IMG/VR virus record: IMGVR_UViG_3300024518_002387
Coordinates: 1 to 20,203 of that record
Length of the DNA stretch: 20,203 bases
Strand: one strand, 5' to 3'
Source of the DNA: a virus
The translations under genes and the position numbers were made by a program. Numbering within the stretch: position 1 is the stretch's first letter; each line of letters starts with the position of its first letter. Below, piece after piece: positions 1,826 to 17,497 of this stretch. The notes under the pieces are model-generated. The model was not told where the DNA came from, searched no databases, and saw only the letters and a list, made by a program, of their open reading frames with translations.

Positions 1826-2608
1826 TTATTCCGGTTTAAAAATTTCTTCCCAATAAGTTATAAGTTCTCCTGTTTCTAATTTTTCAGAGATTACGAATTC
1901 CTTATTAGATAAATGTGGTGGTCGTGCTCCACAAACTAATTCTTCACTAGTTTTAAATGAGATCATGTTTATTGGTTTGTCTTTTATTCTGTATATAAAA
2001 CCAATAGCGTCTACATCTGCAGCTACTATATTTCTAAGTTTACCCGTTAGATCTATATCTCTAGCTGTCAAACTCTTACCTTCTTTGGTAATACTTTTAT
2101 CTTTAACATGACCTGCTAAAAGTAAACATTTTCTGCTAAGACCGTTAAATTCTTGGTATATTATTTTAAAGGCTTCTCTTAAGTACCCATAACCAGCCCC
2201 GTTAGGTAAGTTCCTAACAGTAGCTTCTTTAAAGGTTTTACCCATAGGGGTATTTTTATACATATTAGTAGCCAAGTCCCAAGCAACTTCTTCTAGTTCA
2301 GTTACAGTATCAAGTGTGATGTAATCATATATATAGTCTCCAGCTTTAGCATTTTCAAGTTTAATCTTATCTGCTATACCTTTTAAGACACTTAATACGC
2401 TAATATCTTCTTTTCTAGCAATCTCTTTAACATTAAAGATTGCTGCATTTGCAACGTAGTTACTACCTCCTTCTAAATCTATTAGAAGATTATTAGGTAG
2501 ACTAGCAAGTAATTCTGTTTTTCCAGTTTTTGGTGGACTAAATAAGAATAGCTTACTAGGATTTAATGAATGTGCTTTTGCCCTTACTTCAGGCAATTCT
2601 AATTCCAT
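1826..2608 (-). CDS. Sak4-like / RecA-core ATPase
   Basis: A 260-residue P-loop ATPase. Walker A is SPPKTGKT at about residues 24-31, soon after the start. A hydrophobic Walker B-like strand, YDYITLDT, is at about 94-101, and LLLAGHVKD near 165 looks like the sensor strand. Length and layout fit the Sak4-type, RecA-like recombination ATPases of phages (AAA_24 group), which act in single-strand annealing and recombination-dependent replication. The likely start is the ATG at 2608, overlapping the helicase stop as TGATG. A TTG one codon upstream is the less likely alternative. The 1-base overlap with the DnaB-like helicase suggests translational coupling. RAD51/UvsX-type function is inferred from fold and length. 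Confidence 0.8.
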   Translation of the reverse strand: MELELPEVRAKAHSLNPSKLFLFSPPKTGKTELLASLPNNLLIDLEGGSNYVANAAIFNVKEIARKEDISVLSVLKGIADKIKLENAKAGDYIYDYITLDTVTELEEVAWDLATNMYKNTPMGKTFKEATVRNLPNGAGYGYLREAFKIIYQEFNGLSRKCLLLAGHVKDKSITKEGKSLTARDIDLTGKLRNIVAADVDAIGFIYRIKDKPINMISFKTSEELVCGARPPHLSNKEFVISEKLETGELITYWEEIFKPE

Positions 2609-3717
2609 CAAGATTTTTTCTTTTTATTGTTATCTAAAATATCTTGATAAACTTTTGGCATAGATAAACTGTCTGGTAGTGGTAGTTCAGAGAACTCATT
2701 AGTAGCTCCATCGAAGTATAAACCTATTTTTAATCCAGGTCTTCCCAAACGATTTTTTAAGACACTTAAACATCTGTAATTATCTAACAACTTAGTTACG
2801 TCATAACCAAGATGTTTAGTTATTTCATAGCGTACAGGAGCAAATAGTCCTAATACCACATAATCATCTCTTATAACAATTTTATTATCTGCTGCTTTGT
2901 CTAAGGATGGTTCTAATTTATTGTTTTTAAAGTGTTCTACATCCTCTCCAGCAGCCATTAATTGTTGTACATTAACAACTATCCAGCCCCAGTGTTTACT
3001 AATTTGCTTCTTACAATAATCCATACTCCACATAGACATTGTTTGATGTAGTGATTTACCTGATTCTGGAGTCATTAATCCTACGTGGTCTGCTACTACC
3101 AGAATTCTTTCTTCAGGATCATTTGCTTTGTAGTGAGAATAGATCTTTTCAGTTTTACCATTGATTTCTACATTCCTATATATATGTGTACCTTTAAGCT
3201 TAGATATTTCTCTACAAGCTTTATAGCATCCAGTAGGGTTATATACATTATCAATAATAGTAACGTGGTTTAAAATATCTTGCACATCTTTTGAGCAAGC
3301 TTCTATTTTAACTAGAAGCTCATCTGATAGTGCGTGTTTATAGTAACTACTTAGCGCTAGTGTATCTGTTCTTATATTGTATTTAATCTTTAACAGCATC
3401 ACTATAAGACTATCTATAAACTCATTCTCACTCTCCTCAAGAGCAAAGTAAATAGTATGGAACTTCTCTCCAAAGACTTTAAAATAATAAAAAGGCATTA
3501 TAATAGTAAGAAATTTAACTAATTTAGTTTTACCTATACCAGATTGAGAAAGAATCTTGTACATTACTCCAGGAATGAATCCTGGAACTTGTTCGCTAAA
3601 TCTAGGTAAATGTTCATAAAAAGGGATTAAGTTAAATTTTCCTGATTCCCTTCTTAACTTCAAGGCTTTTAATTCCTGAATTCTTTTCTCTATTGAATGC
3701 TCTCTTAATGCAGTCAC
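2608..3717 (-). CDS. DnaB-like replicative helicase
   Basis: A 369-residue protein matching the C-terminal ATPase domain of DnaB-family replicative helicases. Walker A is SQSGIGKT (about 57-64). The acidic FALEES after the second strand (91-96) carries the catalytic Glu. Walker B is ILVVADHVG (205-213), the VVNVQQ strand with sensor Gln lies at 247-252, and the basic KNRLGRPG (321-328) fits the arginine-finger region. It is shorter than cellular DnaB (about 450-470 aa) because the N-terminal primase-interaction domain is mostly absent, which is common in phages. It would unwind the fork as a hexamer. It is coupled to the Sak4-like gene through a TGATG junction. Confidence 0.88.
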   Translation of the reverse strand: MTALREHSIEKRIQELKALKLRRESGKFNLIPFYEHLPRFSEQVPGFIPGVMYKILSQSGIGKTKLVKFLTIIMPFYYFKVFGEKFHTIYFALEESENEFIDSLIVMLLKIKYNIRTDTLALSSYYKHALSDELLVKIEACSKDVQDILNHVTIIDNVYNPTGCYKACREISKLKGTHIYRNVEINGKTEKIYSHYKANDPEERILVVADHVGLMTPESGKSLHQTMSMWSMDYCKKQISKHWGWIVVNVQQLMAAGEDVEHFKNNKLEPSLDKAADNKIVIRDDYVVLGLFAPVRYEITKHLGYDVTKLLDNYRCLSVLKNRLGRPGLKIGLYFDGATNEFSELPLPDSLSMPKVYQDILDNNKKKKS

Positions 3718-5414: not shown

Positions 5415-6635
5415 TTAATAAGTTTTAATAAATTTAGGATCAATTTCTTTTAAAGCATTTTGTAAATAGACTTCGTCTCTAGTATTTCTCATAACTAGTA
5501 CATAAATTATTGGGTGTTCTGCCCTAAAGCATCTACCCAGCATTTGAATAAATGAGAGTTCCTCAGAATCAAGTTGTGTAACTATACCTACCTCTATGTT
5601 TTTAAAATTCATAGATTCGCGTAACATTTTTACTGCAAATATTTCAGAGATTTCACCATTATTAAACTTGTCTATTATAATTTGGTTCTTATCCTTAGCT
5701 CTGTTACTATTTACAGTATTCTTGCTAAAATGCTCTGATTGTTTAATACTTCCTGTAAAACATACAAATCTAGAGCTTTTGTGTTTTTCTATAATAGGTT
5801 TAAGATATTTAGTTTTACAATTAGCTACAAAAGTTTTTCTCTGTGCGCCTAAATTTAACCATTTGTGCTTATAAAAGATACTAAAAGTAGCTCTTCTACC
5901 AAAGTAGTTTATATCTTTAGTTATTAGTTGGTAGTATTCTTGTTCAGTGCAATTAACTGTTAACTGATAATTATCTATCTTTTTTCTTTTTAACTCAGTT
6001 AATTTTCTAATCATTTCTTTAGCAGAACAAAAGAATTTAAGTGCTTTCTTAGCCTTACCCTTTGTTTTAATATACTTTTCAGTGACTTTGTCATCATTAA
6101 GAACACAGTCTACTATATAAATAGTTGGTTCAGGGAGCATGTTGCTGTTTATAGCATTATCCATTGAGATGGTAAACCTATAAACACTCTTATTAGTAAA
6201 TAACTTTTCCAAAGCTCTATATTTAAGTATTGGAATTTTAGCACTTAAAAACACTCTTTTTTCTGAATGAATGGTATTTATCCTTTCTATCCTTAATTCA
6301 GATATTGCTCCATGACACTCATCTAATATTAAATTAGCGTTTGTATTTAAATGCTTATGCAAAGAACTATAACAAAATAATGTTATATACTTTAATAGAT
6401 GTTGATAGCCATGTTTGTTAATTTCTTCTAACCAGTTATTTATATGATTAGTTTCTTTACACAAGATGTACCAGTTGCCTTTTAGTCGGTCTATTATTTT
6501 TAACGCAGCTAAGGTCTTTCCTGCTGAAGTAGCCCATTCTAAAAATAAATTATCGTACTGAGAAATGTAGTTGGTAGCCTCGTGCTGTATTTTTTCTTTT
6601 AATTTATCTTCTGTTTTCATTTTTATGGTAGGCAT
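5415..6635 (-). CDS. SF2 DNA/RNA helicase (UvsW/DEAD-like)
   Basis: A 406-residue superfamily 2 helicase. Motif I is ATSAGKT (35-41), motif II is DECH (105-108), motif III is FLSA (129-132), and motif VI is QMLGRCFR (364-371) with an arginine finger. Motif V is around SMNFKNIEVGIVTQ. Phage proteins of this type (T4 UvsW and relatives) remodel forks and recombination intermediates. Two starts are possible: ATG at 6635, or ATG at 6620 (MKTEDKLK). They overlap the upstream gene by 32 or 17 bases. It is co-transcribed with the PNK-like protein. Confidence 0.85.
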   Translation of the reverse strand: MPTIKMKTEDKLKEKIQHEATNYISQYDNLFLEWATSAGKTLAALKIIDRLKGNWYILCKETNHINNWLEEINKHGYQHLLKYITLFCYSSLHKHLNTNANLILDECHGAISELRIERINTIHSEKRVFLSAKIPILKYRALEKLFTNKSVYRFTISMDNAINSNMLPEPTIYIVDCVLNDDKVTEKYIKTKGKAKKALKFFCSAKEMIRKLTELKRKKIDNYQLTVNCTEQEYYQLITKDINYFGRRATFSIFYKHKWLNLGAQRKTFVANCKTKYLKPIIEKHKSSRFVCFTGSIKQSEHFSKNTVNSNRAKDKNQIIIDKFNNGEISEIFAVKMLRESMNFKNIEVGIVTQLDSEELSFIQMLGRCFRAEHPIIYVLVMRNTRDEVYLQNALKEIDPKFIKTY

Positions 6636-8510: not shown

Positions 8511-8594
8511 CTTGTTGTTACTCCTGTTTCCAGGGACAAAGTCATTTCTGCTTTGTTCTATATGTCACCATATAGTTCGGACTGTCTCATCAAC

Positions 8595-9155
8595 CTATTT
8601 AAATTTACATTCTTTAGTACATACCCATCCAAATTTTGCAGTATGGGCTATTTCATATAACTCTCCAACTTTTTGAAAAGCTATAATTTTTTCCCATTTA
8701 GGAAATTTACGATAATCTCCATCATATTTTAAATATGTAGGAATTCTATTTGTAAATTTCTTTTTATTTTCTCCAAAATATGTTAATGTATGTTTCACTC
8801 CATTGGAAAATCCTTCTTTATAATCATCATAAAATTTAGGATGTCTTAAAGGAGCCACTAATTCTGCTAATTTAGTTATAGGTTGCTCATTGTCAGTCTC
8901 TACACCGTTTCTTAAAATAAGATGTAATTTTTTTATTATATCTAACAAATCTTCTGCTATATAATCATGTACATTTGTAGCTCCTTTTGTTAATTCTAAT
9001 AAAATAGTATAATCTCTTTTTGTGAGTGACGGCACGGGATTGTCTTTTTCAATAATATAATTTTTACCAGAGCTAGTTTCAATTATATTTTTAATTTTCC
9101 ATCCATTTTTTAAAAGTGGATCTAAATTATATTCTCTGTCTATTACTTTTTGCAT
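8595..9155 (-). CDS. Intron-encoded unknown protein overlapping the ribozyme core, 186 aa
   Basis: A 186-residue basic protein (MQKVIDREYNL to CTKECKFK) ending with TAG a few bases before the P7 strand of the intron. No LAGLIDADG, GIY-YIG or clear HNH motif is seen; the C-terminus FGWVCTKEC has two Cys. Its position in the intron suggests an endonuclease or maturase, but sequence does not show it. Candidate P4' (9032-9044) and P7 5' (8888-8904, containing GAGACTG) elements fall inside the frame, so protein and ribozyme sequence would share bases. An open run of 186 codons in such AT-rich DNA argues for a real gene. Confidence 0.6.
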   Translation of the reverse strand: MQKVIDREYNLDPLLKNGWKIKNIIETSSGKNYIIEKDNPVPSLTKRDYTILLELTKGATNVHDYIAEDLLDIIKKLHLILRNGVETDNEQPITKLAELVAPLRHPKFYDDYKEGFSNGVKHTLTYFGENKKKFTNRIPTYLKYDGDYRKFPKWEKIIAFQKVGELYEIAHTAKFGWVCTKECKFK

Positions 9156-9301
9156 AACTTAATTATTTTAAAGGTTTTCCCCGTTAGCTTAAACTTATTT
9201 TTTAGATTAAAATAGAAAATAGTATTAATAATTTTCATATTTTATGTTTAAACCCCAAGGCTACTAACCTTAGATTCGGAATTTTCGTTAATTAATTTTT
9301 T

Positions 9302-9408
9302 TTATTGTAAAAAATGTTCCTTCATAAAACGATCAAATTCTTCAAGACAATTATCAGCACTTGTATCAACCTTTGACCACCAAGCTGTTCTATTCTTTCC
9401 AAGCTTTA
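9302..9408 (-). pseudogene. Out-of-frame C-terminal extension of the 151-aa intron protein
   Basis: Directly after the TAA of the 151-aa gene, the -1 frame is open for 36 codons and reads like protein: LGKNRTAWWSKVDTSADN, then LEEFDRFMKEHFLQ and a TAA at 9302. It has no start codon of its own. Re-reading one A in GTA-AAA-TAA joins the two frames as DVKIIKLGKN, giving about 187 residues. It is either the remnant of a one-base loss in an A-run or the product of a -1 frameshift. Confidence 0.55.
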
Positions 9409-9864
9409 TTATTTTACATCAGTCCAAATCATTTCTTGTTCAATAGTTTCAAGAGCATCTGATTTAGTATCACCAGTAAAACAATAAAAGGTTTTAGTTG
9501 AGTCATCTTCAAAAGTAAGCTTAATAACAGGTGTAGCCCATTTTGAACCTATGATGTCACCAAGAAAGTTGTTACGGTATTTGTCAAGATCAGGATTACA
9601 TATTTGACCATCTATTGTATCTTCTGGAAGCATATCTTTGGGAGCTTGAATAAATATAGGTAGTTCATCATTCTTACACTTTTCTTGATACTCATCGTAA
9701 ATCTCTTTGACATTATCAGAAAGTGGATGAGTATAACCATCTTCTTTATTCCAAACATCTTGAGCAGTCCAGGACCAATCTTCGTGCATACCTAAAGAAG
9801 CAGATACTAGGTTCTCTGTAGAATTAATGATTTGTTTAGCTAGAATGAAATTGTAATTACGCAT
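9409..9864 (-). CDS. Unknown protein in intron 5' region, 151 aa
   Basis: A 151-residue acidic protein with no membrane segment. Notable parts are LGMHEDWSWTAQDVWN at about residues 24-39, a central region IFIQAPKDMLPEDTIDGQI, and TPVIKLTFEDDSTKTFYCFT near the C-terminus. No known family is recognised and no nuclease motif is visible. It lies inside the polymerase intron between the 5' splice site and the core, unusual for a non-endonuclease gene. Its stop follows an A-run and the -1 frame continues with protein-like sequence to 9302, so the true product may be longer. Confidence 0.7.
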   Translation of the reverse strand: MRNYNFILAKQIINSTENLVSASLGMHEDWSWTAQDVWNKEDGYTHPLSDNVKEIYDEYQEKCKNDELPIFIQAPKDMLPEDTIDGQICNPDLDKYRNNFLGDIIGSKWATPVIKLTFEDDSTKTFYCFTGDTKSDALETIEQEMIWTDVK

Positions 9865-9922
9865 AATAATAGTTGTTTTAATAGTTAATAATGTTGTTAC
9901 TTAATTATTTCTGCAAGCTCAA

Positions 9923-10102
9923 TTATATTTTATTCATATAGTTTAAAAAATCAACATTATTTAGTCCAGTAAAAGAGAATTGTTCAAGCATTTCATTACT
10001 TACCTTCTCATTATAATGCTTCTCATAAACAACTATAAAGTCAGCTAATGACATATTAAGATATTTATTTCTTATTTCAATTGCTTTTAATAACTTTTTC
10101 AT
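9923..10102 (-). CDS. Small hypothetical protein in intron, 59 aa
   Basis: A 59-codon frame, MKKLLKAIEIRNKYLNMSLA to FLNYMNKI, starting with ATG 3 bases after the stop of the 156-aa gene and using the same A/T-rich leader as its neighbours. It is predicted to be an all-helical soluble protein. It fills the gap between the two larger intron genes, so the three look like an ordinary phage operon lodged in the intron. Function unknown. Confidence 0.6.
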   Translation of the reverse strand: MKKLLKAIEIRNKYLNMSLADFIVVYEKHYNEKVSNEMLEQFSFTGLNNVDFLNYMNKI

Positions 10103-10104
10103 TT

Positions 10105-10575
10105 TTATTCTATTTTAAATAAATATAAACTTTGTGAGTAGGTTGAAGAATGTTTAAGATTAGTATAAGTGCTTACTCTTTTAAAACCAAATGCTGTTGC
10201 GGCTACTACAAAGGGGTGATCATAATAAGGTTGACCTGCTGTAAAGATTACTGCTCCGACATCATAGGCGCTAACATATTCATTATTATCACAATAAGAA
10301 CGAGTTCCTTTTTTTCCTACAAAAGAAAACAGTGTTTTTAATAGTTTATTAGCTATTTCTATCGTGCTTATATCTAAATAACTGTATATACAGCCTAAAC
10401 CGCAACCACCTTCAAATTCTTTTATTCTAAGGCTGTCGCACTCTCCTCTTATAGCTACTTCAATAGTAGGATGCCAGCGTCCTGTGGGGCCGTCTAATCT
10501 TACTGTTGTTACCCTATCTTGGTCTATAACAGCTTTATCTGCTTTAGATGATTGGGTAGATTTTTTCTTTACCAT
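10105..10575 (-). CDS. Unknown protein in intron 5' region, 156 aa
   Basis: A 156-residue protein with a Lys/Ser-rich N-terminus, then RVTTVRLDGPTGRWHPTIEV, a Gly/Cys cluster FEGGCGLGCIYSYL, and a C-terminal segment GAVIFTAGQPYYDHPFVVAA plus FGFKRV. The C-terminal part (strand, helix, GF turn, strand) resembles the last 50 residues of the 107-aa protein at 12762-13085, suggesting a shared domain. It begins 74 bases after the polymerase 5' splice site. No endonuclease motif is seen; function unknown. Confidence 0.75.
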   Translation of the reverse strand: MVKKKSTQSSKADKAVIDQDRVTTVRLDGPTGRWHPTIEVAIRGECDSLRIKEFEGGCGLGCIYSYLDISTIEIANKLLKTLFSFVGKKGTRSYCDNNEYVSAYDVGAVIFTAGQPYYDHPFVVAATAFGFKRVSTYTNLKHSSTYSQSLYLFKIE

Positions 10576-10649
10576 GTATTATATATTTTAAAAACTTTAA
10601 ATTAATTAACTTACCTAAGACATTACTGCCTTAAGGGGCCATTGTGTTA

Positions 10650-16780: not shown

Positions 16781-16803
16781 TTTCTTTTATTTTAATAACA
16801 ATG

Positions 16804-17144
16804 TGGAGACGGCGGGAATTGAACCCGCGTCCAGTCATAATGCTATATTAAGAGTTAAAGGATAAAAGGGCCTGACTAAAAACAACAGTCAAGTTCCACC
16901 AATCTGTTTATAATTATACCCAAAACAGATAAAAAGTTGATAGCTTTACGTCTATGCGTATTCTGTTTCTTGGACTACTACTGTCCTCAGCATGTTATTC
17001 TCGAGTGCATTACGCACTTCAGCCATTGCATTATTTGGTTGAATGTCGCCATTTAACTATTTAACTGATCTTTTACGTAATATACAGTTATAATACGTTA
17101 TCCCTCTTAATACATCAATTACCCTGTCGATTCCGTGCGTCCCC
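16804..17144 (-). ncRNA. ssrA: Transfer-messenger RNA (tmRNA)
   Basis: A complete one-piece tmRNA of 341 bases. The 5' end GGGGACG pairs with CGTCTCC at the 3' end to form the 7-bp acceptor stem, with discriminator A and no encoded CCA. GGAATCGACAGGG near the 5' end matches the conserved D-region of tmRNA. The T-arm is GCGGG-TTCAATT-CCCGC. A perfect 9-bp long-range helix (TATTAAGAG at 17112-17104 with CTCTTAATA at 16854-16846) is the expected P2. tmRNA rescues stalled ribosomes with SmpB and adds a degradation tag. The tag frame is uncertain: resume GGC at 17050 gives a 32-codon tag ending ETEYA and TAG at 16952; another frame gives 20 codons. Confidence 0.92.
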
Positions 17145-17150
17145 ATAATT

Positions 17151-17354
17151 TTAGATTTCTTCGTAATTATCTTCAAAATATTTTTTTGCAATTAACCATC
17201 TATCCATAGGATCATCTGGATTGTATGCAATCATATCTCCTTCTTTAGGACTACCAGCAAGTTTATCGGCTTCTGATATACTCACTGATGTAAGTATCAT
17301 CTTTTTGTCATAAGGATACATTGGAGTACTTCCCTTTTTTCTGTACAGTTTCAT
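17151..17354 (-). CDS. Small conserved-type phage protein, 67 aa
   Basis: A 67-residue protein, MKLYRKKGSTPMYPYDKKMI to WLIAKKYFEDNYEEI, with segments SISEADKLAGSPKEGDMIAY and DPMDRWLIAKKYF. This order (KYRKK start, GD-MIA-NP middle, W-VA-KYF-NY end) resembles small proteins common in Bacteroidota phages. ATG at 17354 is chosen over an upstream ATG at 17423, which would overlap the 45-aa gene. It ends 6 bases before the tmRNA 5' end. Function unknown. Confidence 0.7.
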   Translation of the reverse strand: MKLYRKKGSTPMYPYDKKMILTSVSISEADKLAGSPKEGDMIAYNPDDPMDRWLIAKKYFEDNYEEI

Positions 17355-17359
17355 GTTAA

Positions 17360-17497
17360 TCAATTTAAGATGCTTTTGTACAATATGTAACCATTTGTAA
17401 TAGGTGTAACATAATAAAAACATTCTTTTAGTAAGAGATTTCTATTTTGTTCTTCTATTTTTTCTTTTAGTAGTTTTATATCTTGATTTGTAAACAT
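17360..17497 (-). CDS. Small hypothetical protein, 45 aa
   Basis: A 45-codon frame, MFTNQDIKLLKEKIEEQNRN to NGYILYKSILN, with a charged amphipathic helix at the start. It begins 8 bases after the T-rich tail of the terminator at 17506-17550, ends 5 bases before the 67-aa gene and uses TGA. It is probably co-transcribed with that gene and the tmRNA. Function unknown. Confidence 0.5.
   Translation of the reverse strand: MFTNQDIKLLKEKIEEQNRNLLLKECFYYVTPITNGYILYKSILN

Follow-up and report, generated by a model that had tools for sequence, protein, structure and literature searches.

A tmRNA gene lying among phage genes raises the questions of whether it belongs to the phage, whether the RNA is intact and what its tag would do to the proteins that receive it; the answers bear on why phages carry tmRNA. 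The stretch of DNA analysed, hereafter the window, makes up the whole of an IMG/VR record and is a linear fragment of 20,203 bases.

Structure and surroundings of the tmRNA gene

ARAGORN called a one-piece tmRNA at 16803-17144 on the minus strand, with the tag frame at RNA positions 95-193, and Infernal with the Rfam models returned RF00023 at 16801-17144, minus strand, with 74.9 bits (gathering 47), E 8.9e-28, over the full model 1-374. The first-pass annotation, made by eye, had placed a complete tmRNA at 16804-17144; the two programs agree with it, the Infernal search it had proposed gave a match above the gathering score, and its coordinates are exact, since the discriminator A73 is position 16804. 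The elements of the RNA are the following.

16804..17144, minus strand: tmRNA gene (ssrA), one-piece, 341 nt encoded (ARAGORN and RF00023)
17138..17144, minus strand: acceptor stem, 5' strand GGGGACG, with G3 of the alanine identity pair G3.U70 at 17142
16805..16811, minus strand: acceptor stem, 3' strand CGUCUCC, with U70 at 16807
16804, minus strand: discriminator A73, the 3' end of the encoded RNA
16812..16828, minus strand: T-arm GCGGG-UUCAAUU-CCCGC (Rfam alignment, pairing check, MFE fold)
17104..17112, minus strand: P2 helix, 5' strand UAUUAAGAG, partner 16846-16854 (sequence and MFE fold)
16846..16854, minus strand: P2 helix, 3' strand CUCUUAAUA, 9-bp core (sequence and MFE fold)
17062..17098, minus strand: pseudoknot PK1 (H-type), single-sequence shuffle p 0.035
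17098-17094 with 17079-17075, minus strand: PK1 stem ACGUA/UACGU
17090-17085 with 17067-17062, minus strand: PK1 stem UAACUG/CAGUUA
17005..17017, minus strand: P5 hairpin GUGC-GUAAU-GCAC, within the tag frame (Rfam alignment and MFE fold)

All twelve pairs of the acceptor stem (7 bp) and T-arm form, G3.U70 included, and MFE folding recovers the acceptor stem, the T-arm, the long P2 and P5 unaided. The 3' CCA is absent from the gene, CAU coming after the discriminator A. PK1 sits at the position of PK1 in Bacteroidota hosts; a second pseudoknot near the tag stop has p 0.04, and the position of the PK2 found in some relatives is not matched in the window. The fold as a whole is of modest stability for a single sequence (5 of 100 shuffles equally stable, z -2). 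Comparative evidence for the structure is stronger than single-sequence folding: across 16 phage sequences 100% of cells in the acceptor and T stems are paired, with 7 covarying pairs and a covariation of 0.653 against 0.141 in shuffled and at most 0.145 in slid alignments, G3.U70 is invariant, and PK1 is found at shuffle p <0.1 in 10 of the 16. A scan for promoters and terminators brought up nothing convincing. In one relative (G015, locus L096, about 1465-1500) a strong terminator-like hairpin of the intrinsic type, AACCCGAC...GTCGGGTTTTTTTT, lies directly 3' of the tmRNA, which suggests a defined transcript end there.

The neighbouring genes used to place the window are these.

17151..17423, minus strand: 90-aa ORF upstream of the tmRNA, its stop 6 nt ahead of the tmRNA 5' end
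5415..6635, minus strand: SNF2-type helicase, downstream of the tmRNA on the same strand, the anchor for tmRNA position in relatives
2608..3717, minus strand: DnaB-like replicative helicase, crAss-like
1826..2611, minus strand: Sak4-like ssDNA annealing ATPase, crAss-like

As the annotation had it, the tmRNA stands among phage genes of the same strand, which are crAss-like replication genes. The window was placed with the crAss-like phages on the matches of its PolA (43.5% to cr108_1, Steigviridae), its SNF2-type helicase (55 matching records, nearly all crAss phages), its DnaB-like helicase and its Sak4-like protein, which bears out the earlier assignment to a Bacteroidota-type phage. The placement stops above the family level, as the 20-kb fragment holds no structural genes (capsid, portal, terminase module). 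The 90-aa ORF and the tmRNA are likely to share one common transcript; two 119-aa ORFs near the tmRNA had no phage match. No smpB (PF01668) was found in the 20-kb record, in keeping with the earlier remark that host SmpB would be needed, nor was SmpB found in any of 17 tmRNA-bearing virus records (the window and 16 others). The PolA gene of the window is interrupted exactly inside motif A, between DYSG and QET: its N-part (11783-10650) and C-part (8510-7701) are separated by 2.1 kb with four small ORFs (8511-10649), a stretch without Rfam match even at E 1.

A phage clade of tmRNA genes

PolA and the SNF2 helicase served as protein queries to collect relatives from IMG/VR, and 153 distinct records were scanned for RF00023. 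Fourteen of them carry a match above cut-off, a pattern scan added one more (L382), and among the SNF2-set records longer than 75 kb the count is 7 of 17; these frequencies are lower bounds, many of the other records being fragments. One-piece tmRNA is absent from many relatives, and therefore dispensable within the group, and is absent also from all seven GenBank records first tested. The pattern scan, with 95 ARAGORN tmRNA calls among 120 matches, indicates that phage tmRNAs are abundant in general. The description of phage tmRNAs as rare has thus to be corrected, in view of the 14 further genes among the relatives and of a survey that found tmRNA in 402 of 18,146 phage genomes, about 2.3% (PMC9004378). 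Three other searches were less informative: blastn of the window tmRNA against INPHARED gave short matches or none, relative scans by single window proteins gave nothing or one distant locus, and genome contigs scanned for the T-arm pattern gave matches in many phyla, which did not indicate a host.

In a maximum likelihood tree with 24 Bacteroidota host tmRNAs, the 16 crAss-like phage tmRNAs form one group (support 90/90). When the Cellulophaga phages phi38:1 (NC_021796) and Calle (MT732432), both Pervagoviridae, are added, the phage tmRNA clade stays apart from the hosts with 98/93 and in 97% of bootstrap trees. The comparison with hosts proposed in the first-pass annotation thus places the window RNA with phage tmRNAs. 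Some AT-rich rows of the alignment deviate in composition, which could favour clustering, and evidence independent of the tree therefore matters. Two sequence motifs and the gene order supply it.

16895..16901, minus strand: TGGTGGA motif, in 11 of 16 crAss-like phage tmRNAs and in phi38:1 and Calle; 0 of 48 hosts
16962..16969, minus strand: GAAACAGA motif, a form of GRAACAGAA, in 11 of 16 crAss-like phage tmRNAs; 0 of 48 hosts

TGGTGG(A/T) and GRAACAGAA occur jointly in 11 of the 16 phage RNAs, that of the window included, and in none of 48 hosts. The tmRNA lies on the strand of the SNF2 helicase, 2.4-11 kb upstream of it, in the window and in all seven testable relatives, i.e. those with the helicase gene inside the fetched flank. 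The gene is the phage's own and was probably inherited within a phage lineage of tmRNAs. A bacterial chromosome segment with the host ssrA, the other origin considered, is ruled out by the clustering of the RNA with phage tmRNAs and by its crAss-like replication neighbours; identity to host tmRNAs is about 51% at best. Of 148 Bacteroidota genomes, 143 gave an ssrA match, so that the phage tmRNA is an addition to a host copy.

A second, diverged tmRNA-like match of 49 bits was seen on a Bacteroidota chromosome (G182:C1:772761-773172, locus L275), 45 kb from the main ssrA, and is perhaps a prophage copy. The small unidentified phage record LT996079 (11 kb; L511) has a one-piece tmRNA at 2679-3034 with the tag AKNNTQTYAMAA.

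Tag peptides of phages and hosts

The more interesting feature of the locus, missed by the first-pass annotation, is its unusual tag.

16952..17050, minus strand: tag reading frame GDIQPNNAMAEVRNALENNMLRTVVVQETEYA, resume codon GGC at 17050, stop UAG at 16954-16952

The frame, the longest of the three, has 32 codons and then UAG, and the 32-aa tag ends in ...QETEYA with no terminal AA. Host tags are 9-10 aa long in 48 of 48 cases, all ending in (Y/F)x(M/L)AA. Aligned with the hosts, the window start GDIQPNNAMAE... matches GDYNYAMAA-stop apart from an insertion of two codons, and other sequence takes the place of the canonical stop region; where the relative L495 has V-M-A-stop, the window has A-M-A-E and then 22 further codons to UAG, a run-on that spans P5 and the motif region. 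TAG reassignment occurs in other crAss phages (PMC7886860), but at this stop it is ruled out, since the standard code leaves the conserved genes of the window uninterrupted and TAG is the stop of four ORFs.

Long tags are the rule in the group. Those of the 16 crAss-like phages have 16-32 aa (median 22), about 2-3 times the host length, and those of phi38:1 and Calle have 30 aa and end in ...VAVGV, their resume codon having been placed by homology in a frame that agrees with ARAGORN. Seven tags (L122, L497, L498, L499, L501, L505, L506) were located by eye from the conserved sequence around the resume codon. An AA ending, the ClpXP-type degron, is present in 11 of 18 phage tags against 48 of 48 host tags. 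Such an ending is typical of tmRNA tags without being universal, and its absence does not speak against the window RNA being a tmRNA. It is lacking in the window (EYA), L495 (VMA), L496 (MAS), L499 (LTA), phi38:1 and Calle (VGV), and L119 (LSY), the last read by eye only, as ARAGORN misses it, and less certain. Most relatives' tags keep a degron-like (L/M/I)AA end; the tag of the window, judged by its sequence, is probably a poor ClpXP degron.

The long phage tags look selected as peptides, to judge from two pairs of relatives. Between L497 and L501 the 29-aa tag peptide is identical and 86 of 87 tag nucleotides agree, against 211 of 334 in the remaining RNA, although recombination could be an alternative cause of this identity; between L096 and L382 pN is 0.10 and pS 0.37, on few changes. 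The tags of phi38:1 and Calle are identical, as is nearly the whole RNA. The best polymerase identity of the window to any relative is 49%, so that it has no close relative with which to compare its own tag. Permuted phage tmRNAs in L299, L322, L375 and L388 have tags of 23-31 aa that contain ANNIVAF, some of them AA-less; tags of this long, altered kind may be more widespread among phages.

Proposed function and comparison with known systems

The reading that we prefer, with a probability of roughly 0.65, is that the window carries the one-piece tmRNA of a crAss-like (Crassvirales-related) phage, intact in structure and passed down in a lineage of phage tmRNAs, and that this RNA would rescue ribosomes with a phage-specific tag. 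A tmRNA is charged with alanine through G3.U70, is delivered by EF-Tu and SmpB, and makes the ribosome switch templates; from this established biology the window RNA should rescue stalled ribosomes, and we infer its expression, charging, rescue activity and the fate of tagged proteins. The RNA would be transcribed early, together with the replication genes, have its 3' end completed by the host CCA-adding enzyme, and be charged by host AlaRS through G3.U70. Host EF-Tu and SmpB would then deliver it to ribosomes that have stalled on broken mRNAs, such as should arise from host mRNA degradation in infection. It would accept the stalled peptide, and the ribosome would move to the internal reading frame and terminate there. 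The freed ribosomes could again translate for the phage, and the protein that had stalled would have gained a long phage-specific tag. An altered fate of the tagged protein is proposed because a mere host backup would keep the host tag, yet the tags differ; in the window, with its QETEYA end, rescue would likely proceed without efficient ClpXP degradation.

The phage-only clade, the fixed place near replication genes and the tags about 2-3 times longer, often without AA, together suggest that the tag, and not rescue alone, is under phage-specific selection. A broader and tentative proposal, which we consider doubtful, is that Bacteroidota phages, crAss-like and related, keep a private tmRNA whose long tag has shifted away from the signal for degradation in the host; ribosomes would then be rescued, and the tagged proteins, often those of the phage, would be spared or redirected. 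If true, this would be trans-translation with a virus-specific outcome.

The alternative that fares best concerns the window alone: its tag may be decaying, or the tag stop may have been altered in sequencing or assembly, so that the frame overruns a stop lost after ...AMA. The comparison with L495, the passage of the 22-codon run-on through P5 and the motif region, and the origin of the window in a metagenomic contig with no close relative would all fit. We nonetheless think this unlikely, as the remainder of the RNA is intact and long AA-less tags occur also in phi38:1 and Calle, which are cultured and were independently sequenced; moreover neither other frame of the tag region has an AA ending, so that a single indel does not account for the tag.

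The long tag might also matter in itself, a phage-specific part of the GKVINL kind directing proteins not simply to ClpXP but to a different protease, to an adaptor of the phage or to some use by the phage. The start G(K/N)VINL common to L122, L499 and L505, and similar in L120, the strong conservation of the L497/L501 tag in diverged RNAs and the long tags of phi38:1 and Calle speak for this; but no adaptor or protease was identified, the window tag lacks GKVINL, and recombination could account for the L497/L501 identity. We consider this reading quite unlikely. More improbable still is that the RNA acts mainly as a competitor that titrates or displaces host tmRNA and SmpB and so blocks host-style degradation tagging, the tag mattering little. 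A tag-less tmRNA fragment of phage DS6A has been reported to inhibit host tmRNA (PMC11915505, PMC4131195), and the AA end is gone from some phage tags. A decoy, however, needs no tag, and the tag frames remain open, most of them with an AA ending, and encode peptides that are conserved between related phages. tmRNA genes are common integration sites. A host ssrA copy with which a temperate phage would restore the gene upon insertion, as suggested for phage Panino (PMC11590407), is hardly credible here, given a full-length RNA so distant from host tmRNAs, embedded among replication genes at an equivalent position in relatives, grouping with phages and not with one host, in a window in which no integrase was seen.

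The preferred reading, an intact phage tmRNA with a tag of its own, can be set against known systems. Host Bacteroidota tmRNAs (tags GDYNYAMAA, GENNYALAA) share with the window the architecture, G3.U70, the PK1 position and the tag start (GD...NxAMA), but lack the TGGTGGA and GRAACAGAA motifs and have short tags with an AA end where the window has 32 aa and EYA. Among unrelated phages, mycobacteriophages (Bxz1 group) and Bacillus phage G (PMC4131195) and the marine phage Melnitz, whose tmRNA is permuted (PMC9004378), carry tmRNAs proposed to use host factors, and the tag of phage G, AKLNITNNELQVA, is AA-less like that of the window.

The first-pass annotation knew of no tmRNA in this kind of Bacteroidota phage. 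Those of Calle (PMC8776804) and of the Maribacter phage Panino (PMC11590407) are in fact published, and two gut crAss phages of the genus Burzaovirus (Suoliviridae), cr7_1 and cr124_1, have a tmRNA annotated in GenBank. The subject goes unmentioned in the main survey of crAss genomes (PMC7886860), and in the literature searched, a limited search without subscription journals, no discussion of crAss tmRNA was found, and the clade, the synteny and the extended tags appear undescribed.

The tmRNAs of cr7_1 and cr124_1 are, like that of the window, encoded by Crassvirales, but the gene is circularly permuted (RF04321) and not one-piece. Their tag, (D/G)NVNNIVDYTNVA, has a start that resembles GNVINL of the one-piece relatives and no AA end; in L509 and L510, from these two genomes, the permuted (two-piece type) tmRNA lies at about 2448-2804, with the tags DNVNNIVDYTNVA and GNVNNIVDYTNVA. 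Permuted tmRNA was found in none of 50 long relatives and none of 99 sampled Bacteroidota genomes, and because of the latter this type of permutation may have arisen in phages.

The tmRNA of phi38:1 (L532 1501-1862, equal to NC_021796 26803-27164) lies where the record has no tmRNA feature and where a hypothetical ORF of the opposite strand, gp041, is annotated across it. crAss-like phages form one of the most abundant groups of phages in the human gut, and it is with their tmRNAs that those of phi38:1 and Calle group. The two resemble the window in clade, TGGTGGA motif and a long AA-less tag, and differ from it in phage family and in the sequence of the tag (GNNTNAVNAQIEANMEAVNAILNLEVAVGV); as both are cultured, with cultured Cellulophaga hosts, the question is directly testable in them.
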